NCBI GenBank assembly: GCA_014730235.1 | Contig: WJIO01000387.1 | Location: 1 to 18,925 of the forward strand | DNA: 18,925 nucleotides | Source of the DNA: Candidatus Poribacteria bacterium | GTDB lineage: Bacteria; Poribacteria; DTPJ01; WJIO01 | Reading direction: 5' to 3' | Part shown: positions 2,261 through 17,426 of the stretch, piece by piece | Position numbering within the stretch: position 1 is the stretch's first letter | Layout: each line of letters starts with the position of its first letter | Made by a program: the position numbers and the translations under genes | The notes under the pieces: generated by a model | Seen by the model: only the letters and a program-made list of their open reading frames with translations | Database searches by the model: none | What the model was told of the DNA's origin: nothing

Positions 2261-3661
2261 ATGTCAGATAAAACCAATCTTTTGTTTGTATTTGCAGACC
2301 AATTAAGAGCGAGTTCTCTGCCGGTATATGGTGAAAATCAGATTGAAACGCCCAACATCACCCGACTGGCGGAACAGGGCGTAACTTTTACAAACTCTAT
2401 ATCCACCTGTCCGGTATGCACCCCTTACCGATCTATGCTTTTGCTGGGACGACATCCCCAGACCACAGGTCATATAATGAATTTCGTATGCACGCGCCAC
2501 GACGAAATCAGCATCGGGGATGCCTTTTCTCATGCTGGATATAAGACCGGGTGGGTGGGCAAGTGGCATCTGCATACAGGTTCGTTCCCCCAGATAAATG
2601 GGCCCGACTACGTTCCGGAAGGCAGGAATCGACTGGGCTTTCAATACTGGCGGGGTTATAACTTTCACATGGATTATTTCAACGGCACAGTTAATATAGA
2701 CGACTGGCGTTACCAGCATTGGACAGGTTATGAGACTAATGCCCTGAATCAATATGCCATAGAATTTATGGAAGGTGTTGGGGATAACCCTTTCTGTCTG
2801 TTTATCTCACCCCATCAACCCCATTTTACGCCTTATGATTACGCCCCAAAAGAATATTATAAGCGTCTGCCGGATAAGCTGCATCTGCCTGAAAACGTGC
2901 CGGATGACCTTATGGACAGGTCTCTGGATGTATACCGTCATTATCTTGCCATGACCCTGGCCCTGGACGATATGATGGGTGAATTAATAGACTATCTGGA
3001 TCGCACCGGGAAAAGCGATAATACACTTGTTGTTTTTACTTCGGATCATGGAACTCAGATGGGGGCGCAAGGCTGGCATCCCTTCCAGAAAAAAGTTCCC
3101 TACGAGGAATCACTGTTGATACCCATGATAATCCAACAGCCGGGAGTGTTTGACAACGGCGGATTATGTGATACACTAACGGCCCCGGTGGATATGTTTC
3201 CATCATTGTGCAGCCTTTGCGACGTTCCAATTCCCCGAACTGTGGAGGGTTACGATCTATCGGGGTCATGGCTTGGTGAAGAAAACTCCTGCCGGCAGGA
3301 TGCTGTGTTGACCATGAATTTCACAAAGGCTTATGACTTCCTTGTCGATGGCGAAGAATGGCGGGGAGTAAGAACAAAGGATTATTCATACTCCCGATGG
3401 CTTAACGGAACAACTGAGCTTTTTGACCTCAGAAACGATCCCCTGGAAATGGAAAACCTGGCCGGCATCCTGAAACACAGGGAGCTTGAGAAACAAATGG
3501 AGTCACAACTTCAGGAATTGATGACCAGACGTAATGAATCTATGATACCATGCACTGATTACGGCATTTGGTATGATAATCAGCGCAGGATCATAAGAAA
3601 TGTATACGGCGAACTGGGCGATCCGGAACAACCCCCGGATTGGTCTTTACTTACTGCTTGA
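2261..3661 (+). CDS. Type I sulfatase (formylglycine-dependent), cytoplasmic-type
   Basis: This 466-residue protein is a member of the alkaline-phosphatase-superfamily sulfatases, which hydrolyse sulfate esters. Seen directly: the metal strand LLFVFADQL with D13-Q14; the catalytic signature C53-T-P-Y-R57, whose Cys is converted to formylglycine in this family; GWVGKWHLH (K101, H103) for sulfate binding; SPHQPH (about 183-188); and FTSDHG (D262, H263) completing the metal site, followed by a lysine pair at 277-278. The C-terminal LFDLRNDPLEMENLA is the usual sulfatase C-subdomain motif. There is no signal peptide, so it probably acts on small imported sulfated substrates inside the cell, unlike many exported sulfatases. 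The DQ rather than DD start is seen in choline-sulfatase/heparan-type branches; exact substrate unknown. The ATG follows AAGGAC at 2248-2253. Its 3' end overlaps the opposing URO-D gene by 11 bp. Confidence 0.92.
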   Translation: MSDKTNLLFVFADQLRASSLPVYGENQIETPNITRLAEQGVTFTNSISTCPVCTPYRSMLLLGRHPQTTGHIMNFVCTRHDEISIGDAFSHAGYKTGWVGKWHLHTGSFPQINGPDYVPEGRNRLGFQYWRGYNFHMDYFNGTVNIDDWRYQHWTGYETNALNQYAIEFMEGVGDNPFCLFISPHQPHFTPYDYAPKEYYKRLPDKLHLPENVPDDLMDRSLDVYRHYLAMTLALDDMMGELIDYLDRTGKSDNTLVVFTSDHGTQMGAQGWHPFQKKVPYEESLLIPMIIQQPGVFDNGGLCDTLTAPVDMFPSLCSLCDVPIPRTVEGYDLSGSWLGEENSCRQDAVLTMNFTKAYDFLVDGEEWRGVRTKDYSYSRWLNGTTELFDLRNDPLEMENLAGILKHRELEKQMESQLQELMTRRNESMIPCTDYGIWYDNQRRIIRNVYGELGDPEQPPDWSLLTA

Positions 3662-4712
3662 TAGGCAAATATCCATGCTTATTTATGGCCCTGGATATGG
3701 CCAGCATGCTTCCATGCCAACGGTTTGCCGGGATGTCCTCTGTGATTCCGATAATCAGTCGATCTCCCGGCGTTGATTCTTTCAGGAGCTTGACGGTTTC
3801 CGCTTCCACTTCCTCATCAGAACGTATATGTATAGATGATGGATAATTTATCCACAGGACTTTATCAGACCATATATCCAGGGCTTCTCTGAGAGTCATA
3901 TCACAGTCAGGGGCAGGGGTAAAGGCTTCTACATAGTCCAGACCGGATTCGGCCACTAAATCAGCCCATACCTTGTTGTTGCCATCCAGATGCGCCCCCA
4001 GCAGAACGTTGCCCTTGTGGAGTATATCGGCGGCTTCGTTGTAACATGGTATAACGTATTTCTGGAAACGCTCCCGACCCATTACATCGCCGGTTTCGTT
4101 TCCTCCGTAGTTTACATGGGATGCTGGAGAGTTAGCCACCAATGGGTAAATTTTCCGATGCTGTTCAACGATTGCATCGTTGAGCTTCTGAATTTCATCA
4201 CGACGTTCCAGCCACTCTATGGCAAAGATTTCCACTCCCATCCATGAGATCATGATCTGATGCAGCGGCGTTAATCCTATTCCTCCCCGAAGGATCACAC
4301 CCTCGCCTAATTCAGCTTCGGCTTTGAGGTAGCTGTCGTAGCATGGCTCGTATTCAGCATCCTGAATCATGAACATCAGAGGTTTATAGTCCTCCGGTTT
4401 TGTGAATAGCCTCTTTATGTGCCAGCTTGTAAATCCCGCAGGGCGGCTTATAGAATGTAGATCACCTACAGGTGTATGGATGTCTCTCCGGGAATAAGTA
4501 ATACCATCCTCTTCATAAGAACTGGATTTGTAGGTAACGTTAGGCGTTTTGGTATGGAAAACCGCGTATCCACGATTGACGACGCATAGACCGTCTTCTT
4601 TGAGCTTGCGCTCGGTTTCTGATGGGGAGATCATACACTCATATATAGTAAAAGGCACTTTGTCGGGCCTGTCACCATATAGAACCGCTTCAACTCTTTT
4701 TCGAGGTGTCAT
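3651..4712 (-). CDS. Uroporphyrinogen decarboxylase (URO-D)-family / cobalamin-methyltransferase-like protein
   Basis: This protein of 353 residues starts MTPRKRVEAVLYGDRPDKVP, the typical opening of the URO-D/MtaA/CmuA family (R-R-V-A-L-G---D-VP). Other visible pieces are a central GGIGLTPLHQIM and WMGVEIFAIEW, HVNYGGNETGDVMG, KYVIPCYNEAA, LLGAHLDGNN, and LDYVEAFTPAPDCDMTLREA near the C-terminus. This is a paralogue branch common in environmental polysaccharide-degrading bacteria and probably not a haem-synthesis enzyme; possibilities include methyl transfer. The frame is open upstream to 4862, but I chose the ATG at 4712 because it begins at the family N-terminus and has GAAAGG five bases ahead. 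It is co-directional with the glycosidase-like gene, from which a MITE separates it. The function of this branch is not established. Confidence 0.82.
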   Translation of the reverse strand: MTPRKRVEAVLYGDRPDKVPFTIYECMISPSETERKLKEDGLCVVNRGYAVFHTKTPNVTYKSSSYEEDGITYSRRDIHTPVGDLHSISRPAGFTSWHIKRLFTKPEDYKPLMFMIQDAEYEPCYDSYLKAEAELGEGVILRGGIGLTPLHQIMISWMGVEIFAIEWLERRDEIQKLNDAIVEQHRKIYPLVANSPASHVNYGGNETGDVMGRERFQKYVIPCYNEAADILHKGNVLLGAHLDGNNKVWADLVAESGLDYVEAFTPAPDCDMTLREALDIWSDKVLWINYPSSIHIRSDEEVEAETVKLLKESTPGDRLIIGITEDIPANRWHGSMLAISRAINKHGYLPIKQ

Positions 4713-5028
4713 ATATAAACCTTTCATTTCATTTGTCATGTAAGAAATAGCAAACGGATAGCACAGATTAAAATGATATTCACAGATTACCAGTTGACAG
4801 CTTAATAAAGATAATGATAGGCCCCCGTTAGGGGGAATTTGAGAATACTTATTGGTAATCACTTGTGAGCTATTTTAGTTTACTGGTTCTTCCGGGTTTA
4901 GTGTGGTAATAATTTGAAAATTCTCTCAGCCTGTCATTCCTGCGAAAGCAGGAATGACAATCAAAGTAAGTTTTTCTTGTAAATTTGATATTTTTCTTCA
5001 TTACCACAATAAACCCGGAAGAACCAAT
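4713..5028. other. Intergenic spacer containing a MITE and a small GC hairpin
   Basis: Besides the MITE at 4885-5025, this spacer has a short inverted repeat CCCCC-GTTA-GGGGG (4822-4835) in otherwise AT-rich DNA. It is not followed by a T-run on either strand, so I do not call it a terminator. It lies in the leader region of the URO-D gene. No clear promoter is visible. Confidence 0.5.
4885..5025 (+). mobile_element. MITE, copy 2 (intact, 141 bp), inserted at the stop codon of the glycosidase gene
   Basis: The terminal inverted repeats are about 26 bp, GGTTCTTCCGGGTTTA- at the left and the complementary -TAAACCCGGAAGAACC at the right, with a single mismatch (position 17). The flanks AGTTTACT (4877-4884) and AATTTACT (5026-5033) are an 8-bp target duplication with one mismatch. 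The centre is a perfect 12-bp hairpin, TGTCATTCCTGC-GAAA-GCAGGAATGACA (4942-4969). There is no open frame for a transposase. Ends of the GGYTCTT type plus 8-bp duplications match what is known of ISL3-family insertion sequences, so a trans-acting ISL3-like transposase is inferred. The right duplication contains the TAA stop (5029-5031) of the upstream gene. Confidence 0.88.
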
Positions 5029-7998
5029 TTACTTTATAACGAAATGCCATAAATATTTAATATTATCATCTCTTTCAGGAATACTAAAGTTTATTATACC
5101 ATCTTTAGCTACAGCCTGTATAGATGATCCATCATCAAGAATAAGGTATATATCACCGGATTCAGAACCCGGAGATTTTACACAAACGTCCTTACCGGGA
5201 TATTCATACAGCCATATTTCTGTATTTTTATTATTTTCCACGATGAAAGACACACCTTCGTGACCAAAATCCATATTTCCCAGCTTCTTTATATTTGCGG
5301 CTGTAAGGTTTGGCCCTGTTACATAAAATCCGTAAGGAGGTAATTCATAACCTTTTTCTGTTCTATCCTTTGAATTGAGGTTTGCTGTTACATCTATATT
5401 ACCATATACAGCCTTTATAATACCATCATCCTCCGGTGTGCTTGCATCATTCCAACTGTGTTTAAATGCCTTCACAGGTTCGCCTACATACCGGGAGCAT
5501 ATAGATTTCTGTATACGATCCAGCCATCTCAACCATTCACGCGCTTTTGTATTCTCCAGAGCCGGGGCATGAATCACATAACTCATACAAAATCCAAGAC
5601 CGAGAGTCCAGGACAAGACCTGGCGATTTGTAACGAACTGACCAAGATCATGATACAGCATAGCAGTTTTGTCATGGGCGATATATTGGGCAAGGGGAAA
5701 AATCTCCCATGTTTTTTTAGGGAACTTGTATTTCATTAAAGAACGCCAGCCTGGACCACCTACAGTGGGAACAATACTCCAGGCCATTCCACATAATTGA
5801 ACTTCGTAATTAACTACCCTATCCCAGCCAGATTCAGTGGACAACGGTTTAACCTGAGAATCCTCAGTAATCATAGAGATAATACCTTCAGCATAAGCAT
5901 AAGGTGTAGGGGATGCAGGATTCATATCATAATGCCAGCTTCGGGCCCCGCATTGATCCTGAAAGAGAATATCCACAGGATATTCATGGGTAAATTGCTT
6001 TACAGTCTTGCGGTTGGCTGACTGGACAGCCGGATGCCAGTGACAGATAGTATATCCTTCGTTTTCTCCATAACGTTCTCTGGATAAACTTCCATCCAGA
6101 TTCCGTAAAAGCGGCTCCTCACCTTCCCTCTTAAATGTCGGGCCTTTGGGATCGTCGCACCACCACGTGGGATTGGTATATGGAACAACAATATGACCTA
6201 ATTCATGACATTTATCGAAGAACTCCCGGAATTCCTCAGGTGTTCCAAACTCCGATCGTGGGGGTAAATGATCCGGATATTCCTTGTCGAAACCACCTTT
6301 CAGATAATCGGTAAAGTGAACCTGGGTAGGTACAGGCAACAAATCCAGATATTTTATCTTATCTTTGCAGTTGCCATTGTATTTTACCAATACTGAATTT
6401 TTGAATTTCTCCAGAATTTCAGGGGACATTTTATTCTCAAGAGGACGATTGATAAGGTTGGTTTCGCAGTAATCCCTTAAACTTTCCCCGGCTGATTTAC
6501 CTGTGGTTATACGGACTTCAGGACATAACCAGCTTTCGCCTTCCGGAACGTAGGTAGCAAATGGACGATCACAGTATCCACCTTTCTCATCACCGCCGAT
6601 TGACAGACGACCGGGAACAAAGATAACGGAATGGTCTTCTGCACCAACCCAGGCATCGTGCTTTCCGGGCTGTATACGGTATATGGAAACCGAATCTGTG
6701 TTAGTGTCCAGGTGGAAGAAATCAGCAAAGGCGGCTGGATAAAGAACGCTGTGCTGAAAGTAGGTTGCAGGATGAAGAGCCGCAAAAAAGGAATATCCAC
6801 CAACTTCAAACCAGTTACCCCCATTTTTTACATACTCACCAACAGCCTCTACACTATCATCAATGCTGTTTTCATCTGATGTCGGAATCCACTCTCCATA
6901 GGGATTTAGAATAGCCAGAAATTTTTGAGATTTAAGAACTTCCAGCATGACTTTGGGAGAAGCAATTATCTCCATATCAATATCTGATTTGTTCTGAAAT
7001 TCTTTAATCCATTCATCCACCTTAATATTTGTATAACCGCCTCTTTCTGGGCCGTTTTTTAAGGCAATAAGTCCGAACTTTGGGGAATTTTCTTTAGAAA
7101 CAGACATAAGCTTTTCTACAACGCCTGTAACCACAGCTTTAACGTTTTGTTTATCGCGATTATCAATTCTACCACCTATTCTCCACAATAAACCCTTATC
7201 TCCCAGATCGCCGGCGGCGAAGTAAGGCCCATTTTCTGAGTCGACAAGAACAATATCCATGTGAGAATAGGGCGAAGAACGATTGACCTGGGCTACAGAT
7301 TTATTAATCCGCTTTGTCAATTCAGGATCAAGCCATTTTTCCCCCTCTGGTGTAACATTTACCTTTACCGGAATTTCATCCTCCTGTATATCAATGTGTC
7401 CGCCAAATAGATTTACATAACCCTGTGAACCCATTACTTTATGCTGCCATGATGTGGGATTATCCGGCGATTGACGCTGGAAGAACCATCCTTTAAAAGC
7501 CGTTCCTACAGACATGTTGCCATTCATGGGGCATATAAACTGATCCAGTTGTTGGGGATCAAATCGAAGCTGGGCTGGTAACGCAAAATCCAGGATCGTC
7601 CCATTATAAGGTGTAACTTCACCTTTAAATCCTATACCATCAGAATCTATGCTGATATTTATTTCAACTTTTACCTCAGGGCTTTTAAATACCATGTGCA
7701 ATTCGTCTTCCTGACTGTTTACAGAATATTTAAAGCTTTTGTCCGCTGAGGATGAATTAAATTCAGCAGCGTTTATTGTTTTTCCATCGGCAAGTTTTAT
7801 ATGCCAGAGACCAAATTCATCGCTATTCAGTATGGACTTTGACTTATCATCTCCCGTTATCGAAATTATAGATCCATTGCTGTTATTAAAAGTAACAGTT
7901 CCTGACCCGTTTGATAGAATAATCTTTGCATTTTCATATTCGACAGCCCCCATAACGACTGAAACCAGAGTTAATACAGTTATACTTGATAACATCAT
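5029..7998 (-). CDS. Large exported glycoside-hydrolase-like protein (DUF6259-like)
   Basis: This 989-residue protein starts MMLSSITVLTLVSVVMGA, a short hydrophobic signal-peptide-like start, and is likely periplasmic or exported. An N-terminal all-beta region (about 20-260) rich in Asn/Ser/Gly resembles the galactose-mutarotase-like domain in front of many glycosidases. From about 560 a TIM-barrel-like part follows: LPVPTQVHFTDYLKG, a segment with HELGHIVVPYTNPTWW, then PVDILFQDQCGARSWH with D681 on a strand end and STESGWDRV with E722. These are reasonable candidates for nucleophile and acid. A C-terminal beta domain ends WLYEYPG...LWHFVIK. The layout fits DUF6259/GH36-GH101-clan-like glycosidases; the substrate is unknown. 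AGGAG at 8003-8007 is four bases from the first ATG and seven from the second (7995), so translation may start one codon later. The stop codon lies within the MITE target duplication. Confidence 0.75.
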   Translation of the reverse strand: MMLSSITVLTLVSVVMGAVEYENAKIILSNGSGTVTFNNSNGSIISITGDDKSKSILNSDEFGLWHIKLADGKTINAAEFNSSSADKSFKYSVNSQEDELHMVFKSPEVKVEINISIDSDGIGFKGEVTPYNGTILDFALPAQLRFDPQQLDQFICPMNGNMSVGTAFKGWFFQRQSPDNPTSWQHKVMGSQGYVNLFGGHIDIQEDEIPVKVNVTPEGEKWLDPELTKRINKSVAQVNRSSPYSHMDIVLVDSENGPYFAAGDLGDKGLLWRIGGRIDNRDKQNVKAVVTGVVEKLMSVSKENSPKFGLIALKNGPERGGYTNIKVDEWIKEFQNKSDIDMEIIASPKVMLEVLKSQKFLAILNPYGEWIPTSDENSIDDSVEAVGEYVKNGGNWFEVGGYSFFAALHPATYFQHSVLYPAAFADFFHLDTNTDSVSIYRIQPGKHDAWVGAEDHSVIFVPGRLSIGGDEKGGYCDRPFATYVPEGESWLCPEVRITTGKSAGESLRDYCETNLINRPLENKMSPEILEKFKNSVLVKYNGNCKDKIKYLDLLPVPTQVHFTDYLKGGFDKEYPDHLPPRSEFGTPEEFREFFDKCHELGHIVVPYTNPTWWCDDPKGPTFKREGEEPLLRNLDGSLSRERYGENEGYTICHWHPAVQSANRKTVKQFTHEYPVDILFQDQCGARSWHYDMNPASPTPYAYAEGIISMITEDSQVKPLSTESGWDRVVNYEVQLCGMAWSIVPTVGGPGWRSLMKYKFPKKTWEIFPLAQYIAHDKTAMLYHDLGQFVTNRQVLSWTLGLGFCMSYVIHAPALENTKAREWLRWLDRIQKSICSRYVGEPVKAFKHSWNDASTPEDDGIIKAVYGNIDVTANLNSKDRTEKGYELPPYGFYVTGPNLTAANIKKLGNMDFGHEGVSFIVENNKNTEIWLYEYPGKDVCVKSPGSESGDIYLILDDGSSIQAVAKDGIINFSIPERDDNIKYLWHFVIK

Positions 7999-8370: not shown

Positions 8371-10296
8371 ATGAATCAAGAAGCCTCATCAACCGATTAC
8401 TCATCATCCGGCATCAAAATCCATATATTACTGATCGGTCTGGTGTTTGTCGTTTTGAATGGATACTGGACTCTTATGGGCAGTGAAGTCTGGCATTCTA
8501 CCCAGCTTACTATCGCTTCTCTGTTTTTTAACGCCGTTTTTACCCTTCTGGTTCTGGTAATTATCAATCTTGTAATAAAAAAGATTGTGCCGAGATTTGC
8601 TATGTCCCAGGCTGATATGCTTACCATATATGTAATGGTGGTTATGCTGACTACCATAAGCGGACATACTATGATGGGCTATCTCCTTCCAGCTATTGCC
8701 CACGCTTTCTGGTTCGCCACCCCGGAAAATGAATGGTTGCAGTTGTTTGGCAGCCATGTACCGGACTGGATGGCCGTTAAAGATGCGGATGTATTAAGGG
8801 GGTTTTATGAGGGTGAATCATCTCTTTATATTACACGAAACCTGAAGGCTTGGTTCAAGCCGGTTCTAGCTTGGTCTTCCTTTGTCATAGTGCTGTGGAT
8901 CGTGCTTTTGTCCATGAATATATTTATCCGTAAGCAGTGGACAGAGAATGAGCGATTAAGCTACCCTATCATCCAGCTACCTGTTGCAATGACGGGCAAC
9001 CCACGTAAATTCTTTGGAAATCGTCTCATGTGGATAGGTTTTTCCATATCCGGCACTATATGTATTTTAAATGGACTGAGTTACATAAACCCGGCCGTTC
9101 CTTACATTAACGTCAAACATCAGGGCATAGCGTCTTTTACCAGCAGACCCTGGAACGCTATGGGTACCCTCACCATATCCTTTTACCCTTTTATCATCGG
9201 CCTGATGTTCTTTACACCTCTTGATCTATCCTTTTCCTGCTGGTTCTTCTACGTATTTGGTAGAATTCAAAGGATAGTGGGTATAGGTATGATAGGAGCT
9301 AAAAGTATTTATTTTTATGAGCAATCTATCGGCGCATGGATCGCTTTTGGTTTAATTCCCCTGTGGATGGGGAGAAAATTTTATATACGCATTATAAACA
9401 GAATCTTCAGAAGAAATTACCCACTGGATGATTCCAGCGAACCTATGAGTTACAGAACGGCTACGATAATACTCGTAATTGGTTCTCTATACTTATTTTT
9501 GTTCCTGAACCACGCCGGTATGTCCTTTTGGGCTATCGGTATATTTTCCATGATTTATGCTCCTATGGTTCTGGGAATTACACGATCCAGGGCAGAAATC
9601 GGGCCCCCGCTACATACTTTGATATACGTTGACCCAGCCAGGACAATGGTTACCACCATGGGAACATACCGTCTTGGTACACCAAATCTGACTATATTGA
9701 CCTACCTGTATCCCCTTAACAGATGTTTCCGGGCAAATCCCATGCCCAGCGAACTGGAAGCCCTACGTATAGCAGAACGAACCCGCATAGGTTATCGCCA
9801 GATACTGGCCGGGATGATACTGGCCATTGTCTTTGGTATCTTTATAACCTTCTGGCTTTATCTGCATGTAATGTATGATCTCGGCGCAACCAGCAAAGCA
9901 AGAGGTTGGATCGGTACTATGGGATGGGAGTTTTTTAACCGGTTAAACAACTGGCTTGTTTATCCACAAAATACAAACTGGTCAGAAACAGGTGGAATCA
10001 TCGGCGGGTTCATATTTACCATTTTCCTGGCCATTATGAAAGGTCGATTTTTATGGTGGCCCTTTCATCCCGGCGGCTATGTATTAACAACTGGCGGTGG
10101 TCTTGGACGATCATGGTTTGCCGTATTTATAAGCTGGATGCTAAAGGCAATAATTCTAAGAGCGGGGGGAGTGCGTCTTTACCGTAGGGCTGTACCTTTT
10201 TTCTTTGGTCTTATGCTTGGTGATTATGCTCTGGGGTGTGTATGGAGTCTTATAGGTATCGCCTTTAAAATACCAACTTATGGAGTCTGGCACTAG
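8371..10296 (+). CDS. Polytopic membrane protein, DUF6785-like (OPT-transporter-like)
   Basis: This 641-residue integral membrane protein has about 12-14 hydrophobic segments, from HILLIGLVFVVLNGYW near residue 18 to FFFGLMLGDYALGCVW near the end. Conserved-looking loops include a Ser-rich N-terminus, FAMSQADMLTIYVMV (about 76-90), ENERLSYPIIQLPVAM (about 192-207), RSRAEIGPPLHTLIYVDPAR (about 409-428) and FHPGGYVLTTGGG near 565-578. The NERLSYPI-P motif and architecture are those of the DUF6785 family, distantly like oligopeptide (OPT) transporters. These are common in Poribacteria, Armatimonadota and related groups beside sugar-catabolism genes. Transport of a degradation product of the neighbouring hydrolase is a reasonable inference. 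The ATG at 8371 has GAGGA 13 bases upstream, slightly far. It ends in TAG and converges on the glycoconjugate operon. Confidence 0.82.
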   Translation: MNQEASSTDYSSSGIKIHILLIGLVFVVLNGYWTLMGSEVWHSTQLTIASLFFNAVFTLLVLVIINLVIKKIVPRFAMSQADMLTIYVMVVMLTTISGHTMMGYLLPAIAHAFWFATPENEWLQLFGSHVPDWMAVKDADVLRGFYEGESSLYITRNLKAWFKPVLAWSSFVIVLWIVLLSMNIFIRKQWTENERLSYPIIQLPVAMTGNPRKFFGNRLMWIGFSISGTICILNGLSYINPAVPYINVKHQGIASFTSRPWNAMGTLTISFYPFIIGLMFFTPLDLSFSCWFFYVFGRIQRIVGIGMIGAKSIYFYEQSIGAWIAFGLIPLWMGRKFYIRIINRIFRRNYPLDDSSEPMSYRTATIILVIGSLYLFLFLNHAGMSFWAIGIFSMIYAPMVLGITRSRAEIGPPLHTLIYVDPARTMVTTMGTYRLGTPNLTILTYLYPLNRCFRANPMPSELEALRIAERTRIGYRQILAGMILAIVFGIFITFWLYLHVMYDLGATSKARGWIGTMGWEFFNRLNNWLVYPQNTNWSETGGIIGGFIFTIFLAIMKGRFLWWPFHPGGYVLTTGGGLGRSWFAVFISWMLKAIILRAGGVRLYRRAVPFFFGLMLGDYALGCVWSLIGIAFKIPTYGVWH

Positions 10297-10343
10297 GGAT
10301 TTTGTATTTGTAAAGAGGTATTATAAACTAAAAGCTTGCACAA

Positions 10344-10378
10344 AAAACAGACAATGTTATTTTAACACTGCCTGTTTT
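10344..10378 (-). terminator. Intrinsic terminator of the minus-strand operon (possibly bidirectional)
   Basis: A 16-bp stem, AAAACAGACAATGTTA (10344-10359), is separated by TTT from TAACACTGCCTGTTTT (10363-10378). In the minus-strand transcript every position pairs, two as G-U wobbles, and the helix runs into a T-run. In the plus-strand transcript the same two positions are A-C mismatches. It lies 24 bases past the stop of the radical SAM gene and 48 bases past the stop of the membrane protein gene. It therefore mainly serves the minus-strand operon. Confidence 0.75.
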
Positions 10379-10401: not shown

Positions 10402-11706
10402 TCAGCTTGAGTGATTTACCTGGGGTAATTGACATGTACCATTGCTTGAGAACATTTTGGTAAATCGTCTCATTTTTTGATAATTAGGCGGTTTTCTGCC
10501 ATCGAAGAAATCGCATGAATAAAAATAAAGAACATCCCGTAACCAGAGGCGGGATTTTTCATTTTTAAATATTTTAATTAGAGCAGATATAGGATGATGA
10601 TATAGATTTATAAGAGGTTCATATAATTCCGTTGGATCCCGGAAACATTCCCAATCGCATTTAACGCAGAAAGGTTTTTGCTCTCGCAAAGTTTCCAGAT
10701 CAATGTCCCATATCTCACCGAGATCATCTTCGACCCTGTATCCACATGGGTATAAATGTCCTGTTTCAGCATCCATATAGAAGAAGTCAATACCACCTCT
10801 GCATGGATATTCGGTTTTGCTGCCGTTATTATAAAATTTCATTAAAGCGCATAAACTTGTTTTGGGTGTAAATATCCTGATTTTAGGGCGATATTCTGAA
10901 AGAGTGTCAAAAAGTGCTTTGAATAAAACAGCTTTTTCCTCACGGGTGAAAGATACAACGCGATCTTTAGATGTAGCCAAATAGGACACGTCATCAATAT
11001 CCATACTCATGGGATAACATGTATTGGCCATGGTAAAGCCAAGGTTTATCACCCGCTGGCAGAAATCAGAAAAACCCTTGCTGTAGCGTTCATAAAACTT
11101 TTCTTCGTTAAAATCATTTATTTCATCCATACCGTAACGACCGCCGATATTCCTATTTATACCCAGATTAGCGGCAGGATAGATGCCGTATTCCTGAAGA
11201 ATTGGAACAGCTTTTTCAATACCGTTGATCAAACCGGGAAATCCTCGCATTTCTTCATGGACTTCAGGGCATGAAGAATCAAGGCTGATCCAGAGGTTGC
11301 GAAGATTTGTCTGAGATAGTTTCTCTGCTATAGTATATACACGTTTTTCAAACTTATCATGCTGAGCGGGATCGTAACAGAAGGCAAAGCCATTAGTGCC
11401 TGTCCTTATGTATTTTACGCCCCTGCTACTGGCATGGTTTATAAGCTCTACAATATCATCCAGAAAAAGGAAGGGTTCACCACCGGTAAAAGACAATATC
11501 TGAATGTTCCAGTTATCAACGGCGTAGTCAATAACTCTTTTTATATAATCTTTTGAGAGGGTTTTCCTGGATGCATCACTGCCTTTTCGCATTCCACACT
11601 GGGGGCAACTTGCATTACAGAAAGTAGTATACTGAATAACCAATTGTGGGTTTATATGCTTTTCTCTAAGGGCATCAAAGACCGTCCCAAATGTACCTTT
11701 ACTCAA
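10402..11706 (-). CDS. Radical SAM protein with SPASM-like C-terminal cysteine cluster
   Basis: This 434-residue protein has C30-NAS-C34-PQ-C37 (CxxxCxxC, binding the SAM [4Fe-4S] cluster), FTGGEPF (GGE at 75-77) and ISLDSS (about 140-145). At the C-terminal side is a cysteine set C302, C321, C347, C350, C354 (CRGG; LYPCGYR; CVKCDWEC) that resembles a SPASM/twitch auxiliary-cluster domain. The last 80 residues (HPISALIKIFKNEKSRLWL) are basic and hydrophobic and may touch the membrane. The only usable start is TTG at 11706 (ATT precedes it), with AGGAAGG upstream; no nearby ATG is in frame. It is the last gene of the operon, 54 bases behind the PHP-GT4 gene, so its substrate is probably a sugar, lipid or peptide of that pathway. 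It does not look like the sulfatase-maturing enzyme: the spacing and length differ, and it is not next to the sulfatase. Confidence 0.85.
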   Translation of the reverse strand: MSKGTFGTVFDALREKHINPQLVIQYTTFCNASCPQCGMRKGSDASRKTLSKDYIKRVIDYAVDNWNIQILSFTGGEPFLFLDDIVELINHASSRGVKYIRTGTNGFAFCYDPAQHDKFEKRVYTIAEKLSQTNLRNLWISLDSSCPEVHEEMRGFPGLINGIEKAVPILQEYGIYPAANLGINRNIGGRYGMDEINDFNEEKFYERYSKGFSDFCQRVINLGFTMANTCYPMSMDIDDVSYLATSKDRVVSFTREEKAVLFKALFDTLSEYRPKIRIFTPKTSLCALMKFYNNGSKTEYPCRGGIDFFYMDAETGHLYPCGYRVEDDLGEIWDIDLETLREQKPFCVKCDWECFRDPTELYEPLINLYHHPISALIKIFKNEKSRLWLRDVLYFYSCDFFDGRKPPNYQKMRRFTKMFSSNGTCQLPQVNHSS

Positions 11707-11760
11707 AATGTTTTTTAATCCTTCCTATTAGCCATTAGATTATTCAGCCGGTAAAAATCA

Positions 11761-14139
11761 CTATACATAACTCAATGAGGTGGTTGGTTCCATATAATCA
11801 AGTTCCAGACGGTCTGATTTTTCATGTCCGGTCACCGTATGCCAGAATCCCATAAAAATGTCTTCCTTATCAAATCTTGCAACGTTATCAACCGCCTTTT
11901 TAGACATATTTAAGCGCATTTGTTTATCAAGCATGAGTTTATCAATGGAATTAACAAACATGGAACTGTTTGTCGCAACGATCCCTGACTTACCATCAAT
12001 CACTATTTCTTTTGGACCACCTTGATTCATGACAACGCATGGAATACCTGATGCCTGGGCTTCAAGCACCACATTTCCAAAAGTATCAGTAAGGCTTGGG
12101 AATGCAAATATATCAGCCGAAGCATAAGCCTTTGACAGTTGTTCGCCAAACATAGGGCCGAGGAGTTTGAAGTTTCCCATGTGTTTGGTTTTATCTCTAA
12201 GTTCTTCCAGATAAGGGCCCTCACCAATGCAAAGCATGGTAAAATCTCTGTTCCTTTGGAGAAGCTGGTTATGAACATCCAGAAGTAAATCCAGGTTCTT
12301 TTCTTTGGATATCCGACCCACATAGAGTAGTTTAGTTCCTTTGGTATGACCAAAGTAACCGTTGTTGCTTCGTTTTGCTGGAGAGAAAACCTCCCGATCA
12401 ACCCACCTTCTCAGGAAACCAATTTTATCTGTTCTAATACCCCATTTTTCAAGTTCCGCAGCATAATCACTTGATGGAACCAGTATGCGGTCTGCTTGAT
12501 CGTAAAAAGCTTTGGCAAGTTTTGCTACAACAGCAGCCAGCATATTATCATTTGTTAATTCGTATGAATATCTTGGCAGATCAGTATGGTATATGGAAGT
12601 AACCGGAAGCCCGAAAACCTTAGCCGCTAAGAGACCGGCAAATCCCATAGGCCCGGGTGTGCTAATAACTACAGAATCAAACTCCTCTTCTTCCATCCAT
12701 CTGGCTAATCGAAGGAAGGATGGAAAATAAAGGGTTAGATCTTTATACATAGGAATTCGGAAATTAGTGATGGACGGGAAAGCTTTTATACCTTCCGGAT
12801 GACCATCTTCCTTTTCGTCGGATACAACAACAGTAAGGTCACAATCATATTCTTTACTTGCATCCAGGAATCTGTTTATAGTTCTTACTACACCATCCAT
12901 AACCTGGTATCTATCGGTAAACCATGCGACTTTCTTGGGTTTAGCTTCCCCCATAAACCTTTCAGCTTCGTGTATCAAATCCAGATCTTTATGTACTGAG
13001 GACATAGAGGCCATATAAGCGCCAAGAATCGCAGTTCCCCAGGCTATAAAAGAGTTAAGAAGCAAAGGCTGTTCTGTAATCTGGATTATCAGGCGATCCC
13101 AGAGGTCTGCTGCAAGATTAAAAACGTGTTTATTAATTTCTTCCGCGCTTAATGTACCGGAGTTGAACATAGTTTTTAATTCCGGTCTTTCCTGAACCAC
13201 AGCCCGAACCTCGCGAACGAGAGGTGATTGTTCTTTTTCAGGACTTCTCTTCAGGGCTTTTTTCAGTTTTCTTCGAGTCCAGATATTGGGTTTTTTACCA
13301 TCTTTTTGCAGCATGAGTTTCAACATTAATGCGGCTTCGGAAGATTGACCTTTCTGGCTCATAGCATACTGGTAACCTACACTGATTATCTGGTGGGCCA
13401 GTGTAAGACTTCCGTCTGATACACCACAAGCCTCAGTCCGTCCCGCCCGAATACCCTCCAAAAGTGCCTCTTTTGTCATTTCCTCGACCATCACTTCAGT
13501 GTGACATGATCCTACAAACAACCCGCCATGATCGTCTGAACCACCGACAAAATACTTCTCCCAGGGCCTATCTCCTACAGGTTCGAGGTTATGCTTATCG
13601 GCAAACCATTTAATATCTTCTTCAGTCAATGATGAGAGCATTCGTTTAGTAATCCGATTAGTTCTATCGTATCTTCCGCCATTTAAAACTTCGTGTCTTT
13701 TAAAAAGTAGTATCAGCTTTTCAAAATGATCCCAGGTAAGATCACCGTTTACTTTGTAGAGGGGGTGGGCAGCGAAATGTATTATATCCTCCTGGTTGAG
13801 ATAATCCACCAGATCATAAACGTTATGTCTAACTTCTTCGATTTCTCTGTTCTGTTCTTCATTTATATCAATACAAACAACATGCACCTTAACACCGTCG
13901 GGGAAAAATGCAGTAGTTTCTCTGCCAATGATTACATTATCATAGTCTAGTATTTCCTTCACGCCGTTAATATTGTCATGATCAGTAATAGTAACGAAAT
14001 CCATGTTGCGATTCATGGCCAACTGGTACAGTGATTCTGGTGGTGTATATGATTCAGCACATCCAATCTGTCTCAGCACCCATAATCCGGCTGAAGAAGC
14101 TTTGCTGTGACAATGTAGATCAATTTTTGCTTTGTGCAT
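11761..14139 (-). CDS. Fusion of PHP-type metal phosphoesterase and GT4 glycosyltransferase
   Basis: This 792-residue protein has two enzyme halves. Residues 1-240 are a PHP domain: DLHCHS (D7, H9, H11), FVTITDHDN (D53, H54, D55), GRETTAF (E74), FAAHP (H125), and GGSDDHGG (D202, D203, H204) give the expected metal ligands. Residues about 240-400 are a helical linker with a basic segment (TRRKLKKALKR, 288-298). Residues about 402-790 are a GT-B GT4 glycosyltransferase: KKVAWFTDRY-VMDGVVRTI, STPGPMGFAGLLAA, YHTDLPRY, LLYVGRISKEKN (605-615), LCIGEGPYLEEL, and DTFGNVVLEAQASGIP. The usual ExxxxxxxE appears as D685...E693. The GT half resembles SQD2/mannosyl-lipid GT4 enzymes that act on lipids. 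Start: ATG at 14139 with GGGAG seven bases ahead. It ends in tandem TAG-TGA. Enzyme classes are firm; substrates are inferred. Confidence 0.9.
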   Translation of the reverse strand: MHKAKIDLHCHSKASSAGLWVLRQIGCAESYTPPESLYQLAMNRNMDFVTITDHDNINGVKEILDYDNVIIGRETTAFFPDGVKVHVVCIDINEEQNREIEEVRHNVYDLVDYLNQEDIIHFAAHPLYKVNGDLTWDHFEKLILLFKRHEVLNGGRYDRTNRITKRMLSSLTEEDIKWFADKHNLEPVGDRPWEKYFVGGSDDHGGLFVGSCHTEVMVEEMTKEALLEGIRAGRTEACGVSDGSLTLAHQIISVGYQYAMSQKGQSSEAALMLKLMLQKDGKKPNIWTRRKLKKALKRSPEKEQSPLVREVRAVVQERPELKTMFNSGTLSAEEINKHVFNLAADLWDRLIIQITEQPLLLNSFIAWGTAILGAYMASMSSVHKDLDLIHEAERFMGEAKPKKVAWFTDRYQVMDGVVRTINRFLDASKEYDCDLTVVVSDEKEDGHPEGIKAFPSITNFRIPMYKDLTLYFPSFLRLARWMEEEEFDSVVISTPGPMGFAGLLAAKVFGLPVTSIYHTDLPRYSYELTNDNMLAAVVAKLAKAFYDQADRILVPSSDYAAELEKWGIRTDKIGFLRRWVDREVFSPAKRSNNGYFGHTKGTKLLYVGRISKEKNLDLLLDVHNQLLQRNRDFTMLCIGEGPYLEELRDKTKHMGNFKLLGPMFGEQLSKAYASADIFAFPSLTDTFGNVVLEAQASGIPCVVMNQGGPKEIVIDGKSGIVATNSSMFVNSIDKLMLDKQMRLNMSKKAVDNVARFDKEDIFMGFWHTVTGHEKSDRLELDYMEPTTSLSYV

Positions 14140-14196
14140 GTCTTAACTCCCATCTTTCAAGATTTTAGTTTAAAACCAGAAATAGGCATTAAAAAA

Positions 14197-15258
14197 TCAG
14201 GTAAATTCTATTCCAACCAATTCATTATCTCTGGTTAAAGATACTTCATGAATACTGACTTCAGCAAATTTAAAACCTTTACTGGTATATTTTGTTCTAA
14301 GCAGGCTAAGCTGTTCTTCATCCCGGTACATGCCAACTATAGCTCCACCTGAACCGGGAAACTTGGCAGGAGCGCCAAGTTCTTCCGCTATACCTATCAT
14401 TTCCAGATTCCGCTTTCCAATGGCTTTATCGCCATATATTTTTCTGCGGAGTTTGAAATTAATACTCATAAGCTTTCCAAAATGTTTAATATTTCCATCT
14501 TCCAGAACTTGTTTACCTTCCTCAGCCAGAGTTCCAAACACGCTCATGGCATCAATAATTTCTCTATCACCCTGATTATATCTAAACCGGACTTCGTTGT
14601 GCATTTTACCAGAATCTTTCCCTGAGCCTTCGACATAGGCAATAAACAAATTTGGTAAAAGATTGAAATCTAACCTTTCATACAAACCAAAACCGTTTTT
14701 ATCCATATGTTCTTTATTGAAGTCCATGTAGACAGTACCACCGTAGCTTTGTATAACTCTATCCTGAAGTCCCGCCTTAATACCAAGTTCCTCTGTTTCA
14801 ACGCTGAGTACCAGGTTAGGCTGAATTTCCAGGGGTATATCTTTATCATCAAGTTCATAAAATTTCATAAGGGCTTTCAGGAGCGATACGATAATAGCGC
14901 TTGACCCACCCAGGCCTACCTGCCGGGGAATATTGGTGTCATAGGTTATGCTGTAATTACCGTTTTTAAGACAAATTCCATTTTCACGACAATACTTACT
15001 AAATCTCTTGCATGTTGCATATATAAGCCTTATACCGCCATAATATCCATCCCGCTTGGATACTTCTTCCAAATCATACAAACTTTTAAATTCGGTAGGA
15101 TCAAATTCCCTGTGAGGTATTATCTTTAAGTTTTTGCTTTCTGTAAGTCTTACCGTCGCCCAGAAATTAGTTATACATGAAGATATTGTTTTACCAAAAA
15201 ATCCATCAGATGGATTTCCCATCAGTCCTATTCTTGAATAAGTCCTTTTTTCAATCAT
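14197..15258 (-). CDS. GHMP kinase, glucuronokinase-like (plant-type)
   Basis: This 353-residue GHMP-superfamily sugar kinase has N-terminal RIGLMGNPSDGFFGKTIS (9-26), the ATP loop VGLGGSSA (114-121), ELGIKAGLQDRVIQSYGG (157-174; D166 as likely catalytic Asp) and the third motif FPGSGGAIVG (300-309). From memory these match plant glucuronokinase almost word for word (GNPSD-FG-TIS, NFWA, GYYGG, YDTNIPRQ-GL-GSSAI, AGLQDRV-Q-YGG--MDF-KEHMD, SDSGK-H, GSGGA). That enzyme converts D-glucuronate and ATP to glucuronate-1-phosphate. Other bacterial relatives may use heptose or other sugars, so the substrate is inferred. The ATG directly abuts the stop of the preceding gene (TAA then ATG), a sign of coupled translation. 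It is followed after 57 bases by the PHP-GT4 gene. Confidence 0.85.
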   Translation of the reverse strand: MIEKRTYSRIGLMGNPSDGFFGKTISSCITNFWATVRLTESKNLKIIPHREFDPTEFKSLYDLEEVSKRDGYYGGIRLIYATCKRFSKYCRENGICLKNGNYSITYDTNIPRQVGLGGSSAIIVSLLKALMKFYELDDKDIPLEIQPNLVLSVETEELGIKAGLQDRVIQSYGGTVYMDFNKEHMDKNGFGLYERLDFNLLPNLFIAYVEGSGKDSGKMHNEVRFRYNQGDREIIDAMSVFGTLAEEGKQVLEDGNIKHFGKLMSINFKLRRKIYGDKAIGKRNLEMIGIAEELGAPAKFPGSGGAIVGMYRDEEQLSLLRTKYTSKGFKFAEVSIHEVSLTRDNELVGIEFT

Positions 15259-16329
15259 TTAAGATAATCCCCTTTTTGTATTACCCCTGATCCATAACTC
15301 CCTGGCTCCCAGTGTTAAAAAACATGTTGCCCCCAAAGCTGTGCTGAGAAGATAAGAGATGGATCTATCTAGAACAGTAAGGGTAAAAGCTTGTAATGGT
15401 GGAACTCCTATTAGCACTAAACCGGCCACAAGACCGCCTTCAATAATTCCTATTCCACCGGGAGTAAAAGCTATTAAACCCATAGATATATACCAGACAT
15501 TAACAGCTGCTGCTGCGCTGAAGGAAAGGTTAATGTCCATAGCATAAGCAAGTATTTTAAGTCTAAGGGGAGCCATTACCCAGAAAAAGCTGGCTGCGAT
15601 TAAACTTTCAAAAACAGGAATTTTCCATTTACCCGAATATGGTATTGAATTTATAGATATATTATTTTTTTCTTCACGGGTAAGTAGTCGTAAAATCCTG
15701 TTCCACAATATTGGCATATAATTTGTTTTATATATAATCAGGAAGGCAACTAACAGTATAATTGACATCGTTCCAATGATATAGCTAAACTGCCGCCATG
15801 TTAATAACTTATGTTCCACCAATACAGGTGCGCCTATCATACCCATAAGGGCTATTGGTGCTAGCTCTGTCAGTTTGCTTATTGCTACAGATAGAACGGA
15901 TACAGAATATGGCATTTTAAACTTTTTTCGCAAACCATATACCCGTATAATTTCGCCGCCAGCTCTACTCATAGGAGTTATATTATTTACAAATATACCG
16001 GCCATCCATATTGGCATGAGTTTTAAAACATTCACATGCTTATTGAAAATCTTCAATACGGCCTTCCAACTCCAGTCTGTTAATAATGTGCTTATAACGT
16101 AGACCAGAACAGCCAGAAAAAAGAATCTGAGTTTGATTTTAGATAGGGCTTTTCCAGTCTCTGAAAGGGATTTTGCTAGACTTCCAAATGAAATATATCT
16201 CCAAAGACCGAAAGCTATAAGACCGAGAAAAATCAGGCCGATAGATATTTTAATTGCTTTTATTTTTACTTCCCCCAGGTTTTTAATATATTTCTCATTT
16301 AATGTAGTTTCATTAACTACAATTGACAT
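15259..16329 (-). CDS. UPF0104 / LPG-synthase-TM family membrane protein (flippase-like)
   Basis: This protein of 356 residues has about eight membrane segments. The first is ISIGLIFLGLIAFGLW (about 30-45); a conserved NNITPMSRAGGEIIRVYGLR sits near 115-134 and FTPGGIGIIEGG near 290-301. These are the hallmarks of the PF03706-type (YbhN/lysylphosphatidylglycerol synthase membrane) family, whose members move or modify lipids and are often encoded beside glycosyltransferases. It lacks the soluble acyl-transfer domain of MprF, so a lipid or glycolipid flipping role is more likely. I chose ATG 16329 over the TTG at 16344 because GGAG sits nine bases before the ATG. That start lies inside the end of the original (uninterrupted) GT9 frame, giving a 13-bp gene overlap. 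Confidence 0.85.
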   Translation of the reverse strand: MSIVVNETTLNEKYIKNLGEVKIKAIKISIGLIFLGLIAFGLWRYISFGSLAKSLSETGKALSKIKLRFFFLAVLVYVISTLLTDWSWKAVLKIFNKHVNVLKLMPIWMAGIFVNNITPMSRAGGEIIRVYGLRKKFKMPYSVSVLSVAISKLTELAPIALMGMIGAPVLVEHKLLTWRQFSYIIGTMSIILLVAFLIIYKTNYMPILWNRILRLLTREEKNNISINSIPYSGKWKIPVFESLIAASFFWVMAPLRLKILAYAMDINLSFSAAAAVNVWYISMGLIAFTPGGIGIIEGGLVAGLVLIGVPPLQAFTLTVLDRSISYLLSTALGATCFLTLGARELWIRGNTKRGLS

Positions 16330-16514
16330 TCTGAGCTGCTCCAAACCTTTTTTATCAATTCATTAGTAGCATCGAAAACTTCATCCACAGGAAGTTCAGC
16401 TAGGCATAAATGGGAAGGGCCGTGTTTACACCTGGGGTTAAAGTTACTCTTTCTTAGCTTGAGGATAGGCCAGCAGGGGCGACATTCCATATTTTTTGCA
16501 ACGACAATATGTTC
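16317..16514 (-). pseudogene. Detached 3' end of the GT9 gene, in frame behind an amber codon
   Basis: Directly after the TAG at 16515-16517, the same frame stays open for 65 more codons to a TAG at 16317. It encodes EHIVVAKNMECRPCWPILK, then a segment with CKHGPSHLCLAEL and DEVFDATNELIKKVW. The pattern of a C-x-x-C pair, further cysteines, the CL-(E/D)-(L/I) step and a final helix is the usual C-terminal tail of GT9 heptosyltransferases. It has no start or ribosome binding site of its own. Its stop overlaps the next gene by 13 bp, a normal operon arrangement, which supports it as the true end of the original gene. Confidence 0.8.
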
Positions 16515-17426
16515 CTAACCATAAGGTGATGTTGCAACAGGATTAGTTGGGCCAAAAATTGCGACAGTAGGAGTTTTCATAGCAGCGGCGACGTGCATCA
16601 ATCCTGAATCGTTGCTTACAAATACATTACATTTGCTGATTAAAGCGGCTGCTTCCCTTATGGTCGTACCGTCAATTACAATAGGTTTGATATTCATCAT
16701 ATTATATATATCAAATCTAAGTCTTTTTTCATTCAGTCCGCCAAACAATAAAAGACGCGCGTCAGGATATTCTGTTAATAACCTGTTACCAAGCTCAGCG
16801 AATTTTTCTTTAGGCCAGCGCTTATATATCATTCCCCATTCATCGCTGGAGCCAGGATGAAAACCAATGAGCATTTCCTTTTCATTGACTCCATGAGATT
16901 TCAAAATTTTTTGACTTGCAGTTACGTCTTTTTTAGAAATCCATATCCTGGTGTTATAATTAGCTTCATTTTTATGATATATATCAAGGGGTTTTAAAAG
17001 GCTAAGATTTTGATGAACCGCATGTTCATTGGAATTCATGGCAACTCTAATATTGTGAGTGAAGGACAATCCCATAACTTTTTTCATCATAGGGTGAGAA
17101 TGTATAATCCTGTATTTTGCCTGTATTACTCCAGCAAATATGTTATCAACAAAGTTGCTGCTAAATCCTGTAAGACAAACATCAAACTTTCGTCTCATTA
17201 AGGACACAAATAACTTAAGCTTATGGCCGATGTTATTAAAAGACCGGTCAATTTTAACGATTTCACTTATATAAGGACATGACTCAAAAATCTGTTTTGA
17301 GCCTTCCAAAGTGGTTAAGACTGTTATCTTGGAACCAGGTCTTTTTTCCCCAAGTAACTGGATCATGGGCGTGAGCATGATCGCGTCACCAATACCGTGA
17401 ATACTCAGAATAACTATTTTTTCCAT
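16515..17426 (-). CDS. GT9 glycosyltransferase (heptosyltransferase-like), truncated by in-frame amber codon
   Basis: The encoded part has 303 residues and starts MEKIVILSIHGIGDAIMLTP, the GT9 N-terminus (glycine-rich GDA-L-TP loop). It contains LIGFHPGSSDEW and KRWPKEKFAELGNRLL at the start of the second Rossmann half, LLLFGG, IREAAALISKCNVFVSNDSG, and LMHVAAAMKTPTVAIFGPTNP for ADP-sugar binding. Such enzymes add heptose or related sugars to lipid A-core or other glycolipids. The frame is open back to 17477, but ATG 17426 matches the family start. Complete relatives are about 340-370 residues; read through the TAG this gene would give 369. The missing 65 codons are intact just downstream, so the truncation looks recent, or is a sequencing error. 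Without its tail the enzyme may be inactive. First gene of the five-gene operon. Confidence 0.85.
   Translation of the reverse strand: MEKIVILSIHGIGDAIMLTPMIQLLGEKRPGSKITVLTTLEGSKQIFESCPYISEIVKIDRSFNNIGHKLKLFVSLMRRKFDVCLTGFSSNFVDNIFAGVIQAKYRIIHSHPMMKKVMGLSFTHNIRVAMNSNEHAVHQNLSLLKPLDIYHKNEANYNTRIWISKKDVTASQKILKSHGVNEKEMLIGFHPGSSDEWGMIYKRWPKEKFAELGNRLLTEYPDARLLLFGGLNEKRLRFDIYNMMNIKPIVIDGTTIREAAALISKCNVFVSNDSGLMHVAAAMKTPTVAIFGPTNPVATSPYG

Follow-up and report, generated by a model that had tools for sequence, protein, structure and literature searches.

We found that a PHP-GT4 fusion protein and a radical SAM enzyme form a conserved two-gene core. The window studied here (the whole stretch of DNA analyzed, 18,925 bp) is a complete contig, C332, of a 5.5-Mb assembly (451 contigs, 91.6% complete), in which the pair closes a five-gene operon. 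The gene identities, their packing, the pairing, and the family or fold similarity to GpgS, GpgD, and BlsE can be read from the sequence. Literature searches on a PHP domain with a glycosyltransferase and a radical SAM protein, or on a radical SAM protein with a glycolipid and a flippase, returned nothing on this system, and no description of the pairing was found in the literature searched. Only in 2023 to 2025 were genes assigned to glucosaminyl phosphatidylglycerol (GlcN-PG) and to a charged glycolipid related to it (PMC10128005, PMC12713373). In Pseudomonas aeruginosa, GlcN-PG is the product of GpgSDF, which combines a GT4 enzyme with a deacetylase and a UPF0104 protein predicted to be a flippase (PMC12713373); HexSDF of Clostridioides difficile is an analogous aminohexosyl glycolipid system (PMC10128005).

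Pfam searches confirmed all five genes, tightly packed on the minus strand:

16515..17426, minus strand: GT9 (heptosyltransferase-like) gene, interrupted (PF01075; sequence)
15259..16344, minus strand: UPF0104/LPG_synthase_TM flippase-like membrane protein (PF03706, E = 2e-39; TIGR00374, 106 bits)
14197..15258, minus strand: GHMP kinase, probably glucuronokinase-like (PF00288 and PF08544)
11761..14139, minus strand: PHP-GT4 fusion (PHP_C, PF13263; GT4, PF13439 and PF00534)
10402..11706, minus strand: radical SAM enzyme with a SPASM/twitch-like C-terminal Cys set (PF04055)
10340..10375, minus strand: intrinsic terminator (13-bp stem and U-run)

The initial annotation had described five families packed on one strand and closed by a terminator, and this arrangement held. 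The gaps are 0 bp between the flippase gene (probable start, ATG at 16329) and the kinase gene, 57 bp between the kinase and PHP-GT4 genes, and 54 bp between the PHP-GT4 and radical SAM genes. None of 200 shuffles matched the stability of the hairpin 3' of the radical SAM gene (z = -5.9). The 0- to 57-bp spacing and the common terminator suggest co-transcription. The GT9 assignment also stood (PF01075), but the gene is not intact: its open reading frame ends at an in-frame TAG (16515 to 16517). The same frame continues for about 64 codons to 16317 with Cys-rich, GT9-like C-terminal sequence, and reading through raises the PF01075 score from 104.7 to 114.4 bits, which indicates that the gene is interrupted, either as a pseudogene or through a base error in the assembly. 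We rejected pyrrolysine as the reason for the TAG because PylB is absent from the genome; a second candidate, a TAG in the frame of the C169 kinase paralogue, was dismissed because it is the terminal stop of that gene.

Three further regions of the window were noted. A sulfatase-like open reading frame with a CxPxR (CTPYR) motif (2261 to 3661) adjoins a weakly URO-D-like protein (3651 to 4862). A 989-aa protein (5029 to 7998; DUF6259, 47.8 bits) is possibly of glycoside-hydrolase type. A DUF6785/DUF6784 membrane protein (8371 to 10296), convergent with the operon, has a homologue in a same-phylum locus (L044).

Searching 84,980 species genomes with a profile yielded over 580 relatives of PHP-GT4, and the fusion on its own is therefore common. 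We examined the best 80 loci, and in 17 of them a radical SAM homologue (43 to 51% identical to the window's) adjoins the PHP-GT4 gene on the same strand at a distance of 30 to 302 bp. These paired loci cover at least four phyla (Nitrospirota, Thermodesulfobacteriota, Planctomycetota, and Hydrogenedentota). Co-occurrence was assessed in 395 genomes of the Thermodesulfobacteriota group (the phylum of Desulfatitalea). The radical SAM gene was present in 11 of these genomes, adjoining PHP-GT4 in 5 and unlinked in 6, and all 11 also carried PHP-GT4, found in 67 genomes overall (hypergeometric P = 1.6e-9, uncorrected for shared ancestry). Among 31 genomes with PHP-GT4 and no adjacent radical SAM gene, 30 had no radical SAM homologue anywhere. 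The pairing label requires about nine changes on the PHP-GT4 tree, and distances within the two families correlate (r = 0.73; p = 1e-4). The window's PHP-GT4 protein branches with an Omnitrophota sequence, its closest relative (46%; L098). In a separate set of 97 genomes, the radical SAM gene was found in the window's genome only and full-length PHP-GT4 in that genome plus one of another phylum. The combination of PHP-GT4 with a radical SAM protein, singled out by the initial annotation as the most unusual part of the operon, is thus unusual indeed and is also its conserved part. Of the three families whose co-occurrence across genomes the initial annotation proposed to check, these two recur together, with no kinase homologue detectable at the nearest 80 PHP-GT4 loci.

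In a Desulfovibrio locus (L205, 8037-9371 and 11755-12924), two closely spaced radical SAM genes lie apart from PHP-GT4; one belongs to the PHP-GT4-partner family, and the other is about 27% identical. The "clusters" that recurred near PHP-GT4 genes (about 325 and 454 aa) were discarded as antisense or shifted-frame open reading frames in GC-rich DNA.

The five-gene set is not conserved as one pathway. No homologue of the kinase, flippase, or GT9 protein was detectable at the nearest 80 PHP-GT4 loci, including those with a radical SAM partner. Kinase relatives (51 to 67% identity) occur in about a dozen same-phylum genomes, with two paralogues elsewhere in the window's own genome. In the same-phylum genomes examined, the genes around them vary from almost every locus to the next, and none of the other four families is ever among them; we therefore rejected a conserved operon centered on the kinase. 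The exact five-gene pathway put forward in the initial annotation was not upheld, as all of the same-phylum relatives examined carry the kinase in a different place. Five ordinary envelope genes may instead have gathered in one lineage, with PHP-GT4 and radical SAM as the only functional unit and the kinase, flippase, and decaying GT9 drawn from other pathways (uronate salvage or LPS core). We consider this a real possibility that falls short of an even chance. The lack of conservation of the set, the kinase paralogues, and the GT9 interruption all fit it, whereas the tight spacing and common terminator, suggestive of co-transcription, do not; a GpgSDF-like system would also be expected to have a flippase, and the operon encodes a UPF0104 protein (PF03706, E = 2e-39).

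The kinase carries both GHMP kinase domains (PF00288 and PF08544), and its nearest solved structures are HddA (heptose-phosphate kinases) and mevalonate kinases. It is highly similar (48.7% identity over 337 aa) to what we take to be a plant glucuronokinase sequence, one not drawn from a database. It is probably glucuronokinase-like, and a glucuronokinase function is a plausible lead. Its presence in the same operon as a uronate-decarboxylase-like fold hints at a link, but the kinase does not recur at the other loci. Plant and zebrafish glucuronokinases (PMC3938481) are likewise GHMP kinases, but no pyrophosphorylase partner lies in the window.

The PHP-GT4 protein combines an N-terminal metal-dependent phosphoesterase-type PHP domain (residues about 1 to 240) with a C-terminal GpgS-like GT4 domain (about 400 to 770). 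The PHP assignment is based on PHP_C (24.9 bits; cutoff, 21.3), a weak match to NF038032, and metal-site residues that do not vary; PF02811 (PHP) itself was not reported for this protein. The HxH and TDH motifs and C-terminal D/H metal ligands of the superfamily are all present. Across 34 members, the ligands H9, H11, D53, H54, H125, and D202 are invariant, and E74, H86, and H204 are kept at 90% or more. Because the metal-site residues are conserved, the domain is likely to have phosphoesterase activity. For the GT4 half, the top NCBIfam family is GpgS (NF053787), which all 34 relatives scanned also match. The score of 111.1 bits is below the curated cutoff of 480 bits, and so the acceptor and donor may differ from those of GpgS.

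Gene neighborhoods elsewhere point to lipids. A DUF2334/GpgD-like (GlcNAc-PG deacetylase-like) gene directly adjoins PHP-GT4 in 22 Verrucomicrobiota loci (L121, 9183-10001, and 21 similar loci); three such neighbors tested scored 162 to 195 bits against a GlcNAc-PG deacetylase cutoff of 280 bits. Deacetylase and PHP-GT4 likely constitute a separate, uncharacterized GlcN-lipid operon in that phylum. A phosphatidylserine decarboxylase gene lies directly upstream of PHP-GT4 in four loci (L108, L116, L118, and L134). The radical SAM gene was never found together with either neighbor; the mutual exclusion of deacetylase and radical SAM coincides with phylum. DUF2334 is absent from the window and has no match in its genome (about 92% complete). 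In another phylum (L082, L083, L087, and L091), PHP-GT4 relatives lie near genes for LpxB, a DUF374 acyltransferase, Gfo/Idh/MocA, and a methyltransferase, a lipid context. The idea of a glycolipid moved by a flippase, already raised by the initial annotation, gains support from the GpgS-like GT4, the GpgD-like and phosphatidylserine decarboxylase neighbors in related loci, and the UPF0104 protein.

A soluble product is the alternative here. As in mycothiol synthesis, the GT4 domain would glycosylate a phosphorylated polyol (e.g., inositol phosphate), the PHP domain would remove the phosphate, and the radical SAM enzyme would modify the resulting small molecule. MshA is the second NCBIfam match of PHP-GT4, and the best folds for its predicted model (mean pLDDT, 85.6) are BshA and MshA, with PimA also among the matches. 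MshA and BshA share the GT4 fold and motifs and transfer GlcNAc, but they use soluble acceptors, which would count against a GpgSDF-like reading, and lack a PHP domain. Fusion of a glycosyltransferase to a phosphatase-type domain fits a soluble pathway, as does an inositol-monophosphatase family gene near one PHP-GT4/radical SAM pair (L106). GpgS nevertheless outscores MshA, the neighboring deacetylases are GpgD-like (DUF2334), and the phosphatidylserine decarboxylase neighbors and the window's flippase indicate lipids, and we regard a soluble pathway as quite unlikely.

Judged by its sequence, the radical SAM partner is a distinct family. Its CxxxCxxC and GGEP motifs (C30, C34, C37, and G75-P78) are invariant in the family alignment, as are five C-terminal Cys residues (302, 321, 347, 350, and 354), compared with seven in the SPASM motif; the Pfam output contained no SPASM family for this protein. 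The closest solved fold for its model (pLDDT, 83.1) is BlsE (PDB 7vob; Z = 22.6, 296 residues, 3.6 Å), with the next entry at Z = 19.9. BlsE is a cytosylglucuronic acid decarboxylase that decarboxylates a glucuronoside (PMC3715490). The match covers most of the window's protein, and CxxxCxxC and GGEP are common to both, but identity is about 16%, the BlsE substrate is a soluble nucleoside, and the BlsE family model (TIGR04466) gives 33.4 bits against a curated cutoff of 400. The fold similarity therefore favors sugar chemistry for the radical SAM protein and does not establish its substrate; the core also lies close to SkfB, viperin, and SuiB. A role in maturing peptides or proteins, or in modifying lipid chains, with a regulatory or indirect link to PHP-GT4, seems improbable: the SPASM/twitch-like Cys pattern, sequence matches to the peptide epimerase YydG, and fold similarity to SkfB, SuiB, and GDGT-MAS are consistent with such a role, but the best fold is a sugar-acting enzyme, the 54-bp gap in the window's pair is too small for a precursor gene, and every radical SAM genome tested has PHP-GT4.

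Taken as a GpgSDF-like glycophospholipid system, the operon would make and export a modified glycolipid, with the radical SAM enzyme altering the sugar in place of a deacetylase. With a nucleotide sugar as donor, the GT4 half would glycosylate the head group of a phospholipid, for instance phosphatidylglycerol, and the PHP half would hydrolyze a phosphate carried by either the acceptor or the product. The sugar would next be altered by the radical SAM enzyme, in the role taken by the GpgD-like deacetylase in related loci; our favored guess is decarboxylation or a similar carbon-centered reaction on a uronic acid. The UPF0104 protein would serve as the flippase for this lipid. By converting salvaged glucuronate into its 1-phosphate, the GHMP kinase may feed the donor pool, and GT9, if functional, would extend the glycan. 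We infer the acceptor, the donor, the radical chemistry, and the membership of the kinase and GT9, along with the order of steps (GlcA-1-phosphate, GT4 transfer, GT9 extension), the GT9 gene being interrupted. Against this scheme stand the failure to detect the kinase, flippase, and GT9 near other pairs, the lack of a radical SAM gene in the genome of the closest PHP-GT4 relative (L098), the coincidence of deacetylase/radical SAM exclusivity with phylum, and the GT9 interruption. We see its chances as evenly balanced. More tentatively, and with less than favorable prospects, we propose that the radical SAM enzyme of this two-gene system, which occurs in several phyla, chemically alters the sugar that PHP-GT4 has installed on a membrane glycophospholipid, one example being decarboxylation of a lipid-linked uronic acid. 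We know of no earlier radical SAM step on a glycolipid sugar, and this one, if true, would be the first. The widespread occurrence of PHP-GT4 and its interchangeable partners (deacetylase, radical SAM, and phosphatidylserine decarboxylase) suggest that lipids with modified head groups form a larger class, with many members in anaerobes, and offer the radical SAM family a testable substrate class.

Among known systems, HexSDF resembles the window in its three-part logic of synthase, sugar modifier, and MprF-like flippase, but its synthase is annotated as a monogalactosyldiacylglycerol synthase, with PHP and radical SAM unmentioned (PMC10128005). GpgSDF (PMC12713373) differs in that the window's GT4 is far under the GpgS cutoff and fused to PHP, a deacetylase match is missing from the window's genome, and radical SAM, GHMP kinase, and GT9 genes are extra. 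The two nevertheless share a GT4 enzyme with GpgS as its best match and a UPF0104 flippase in one operon, and PHP-GT4 relatives in Verrucomicrobiota adjoin a GpgD-like deacetylase. On these family similarities, the PHP-GT4/radical SAM system is best described as a putative variant of known GpgSDF-type glycolipid systems.
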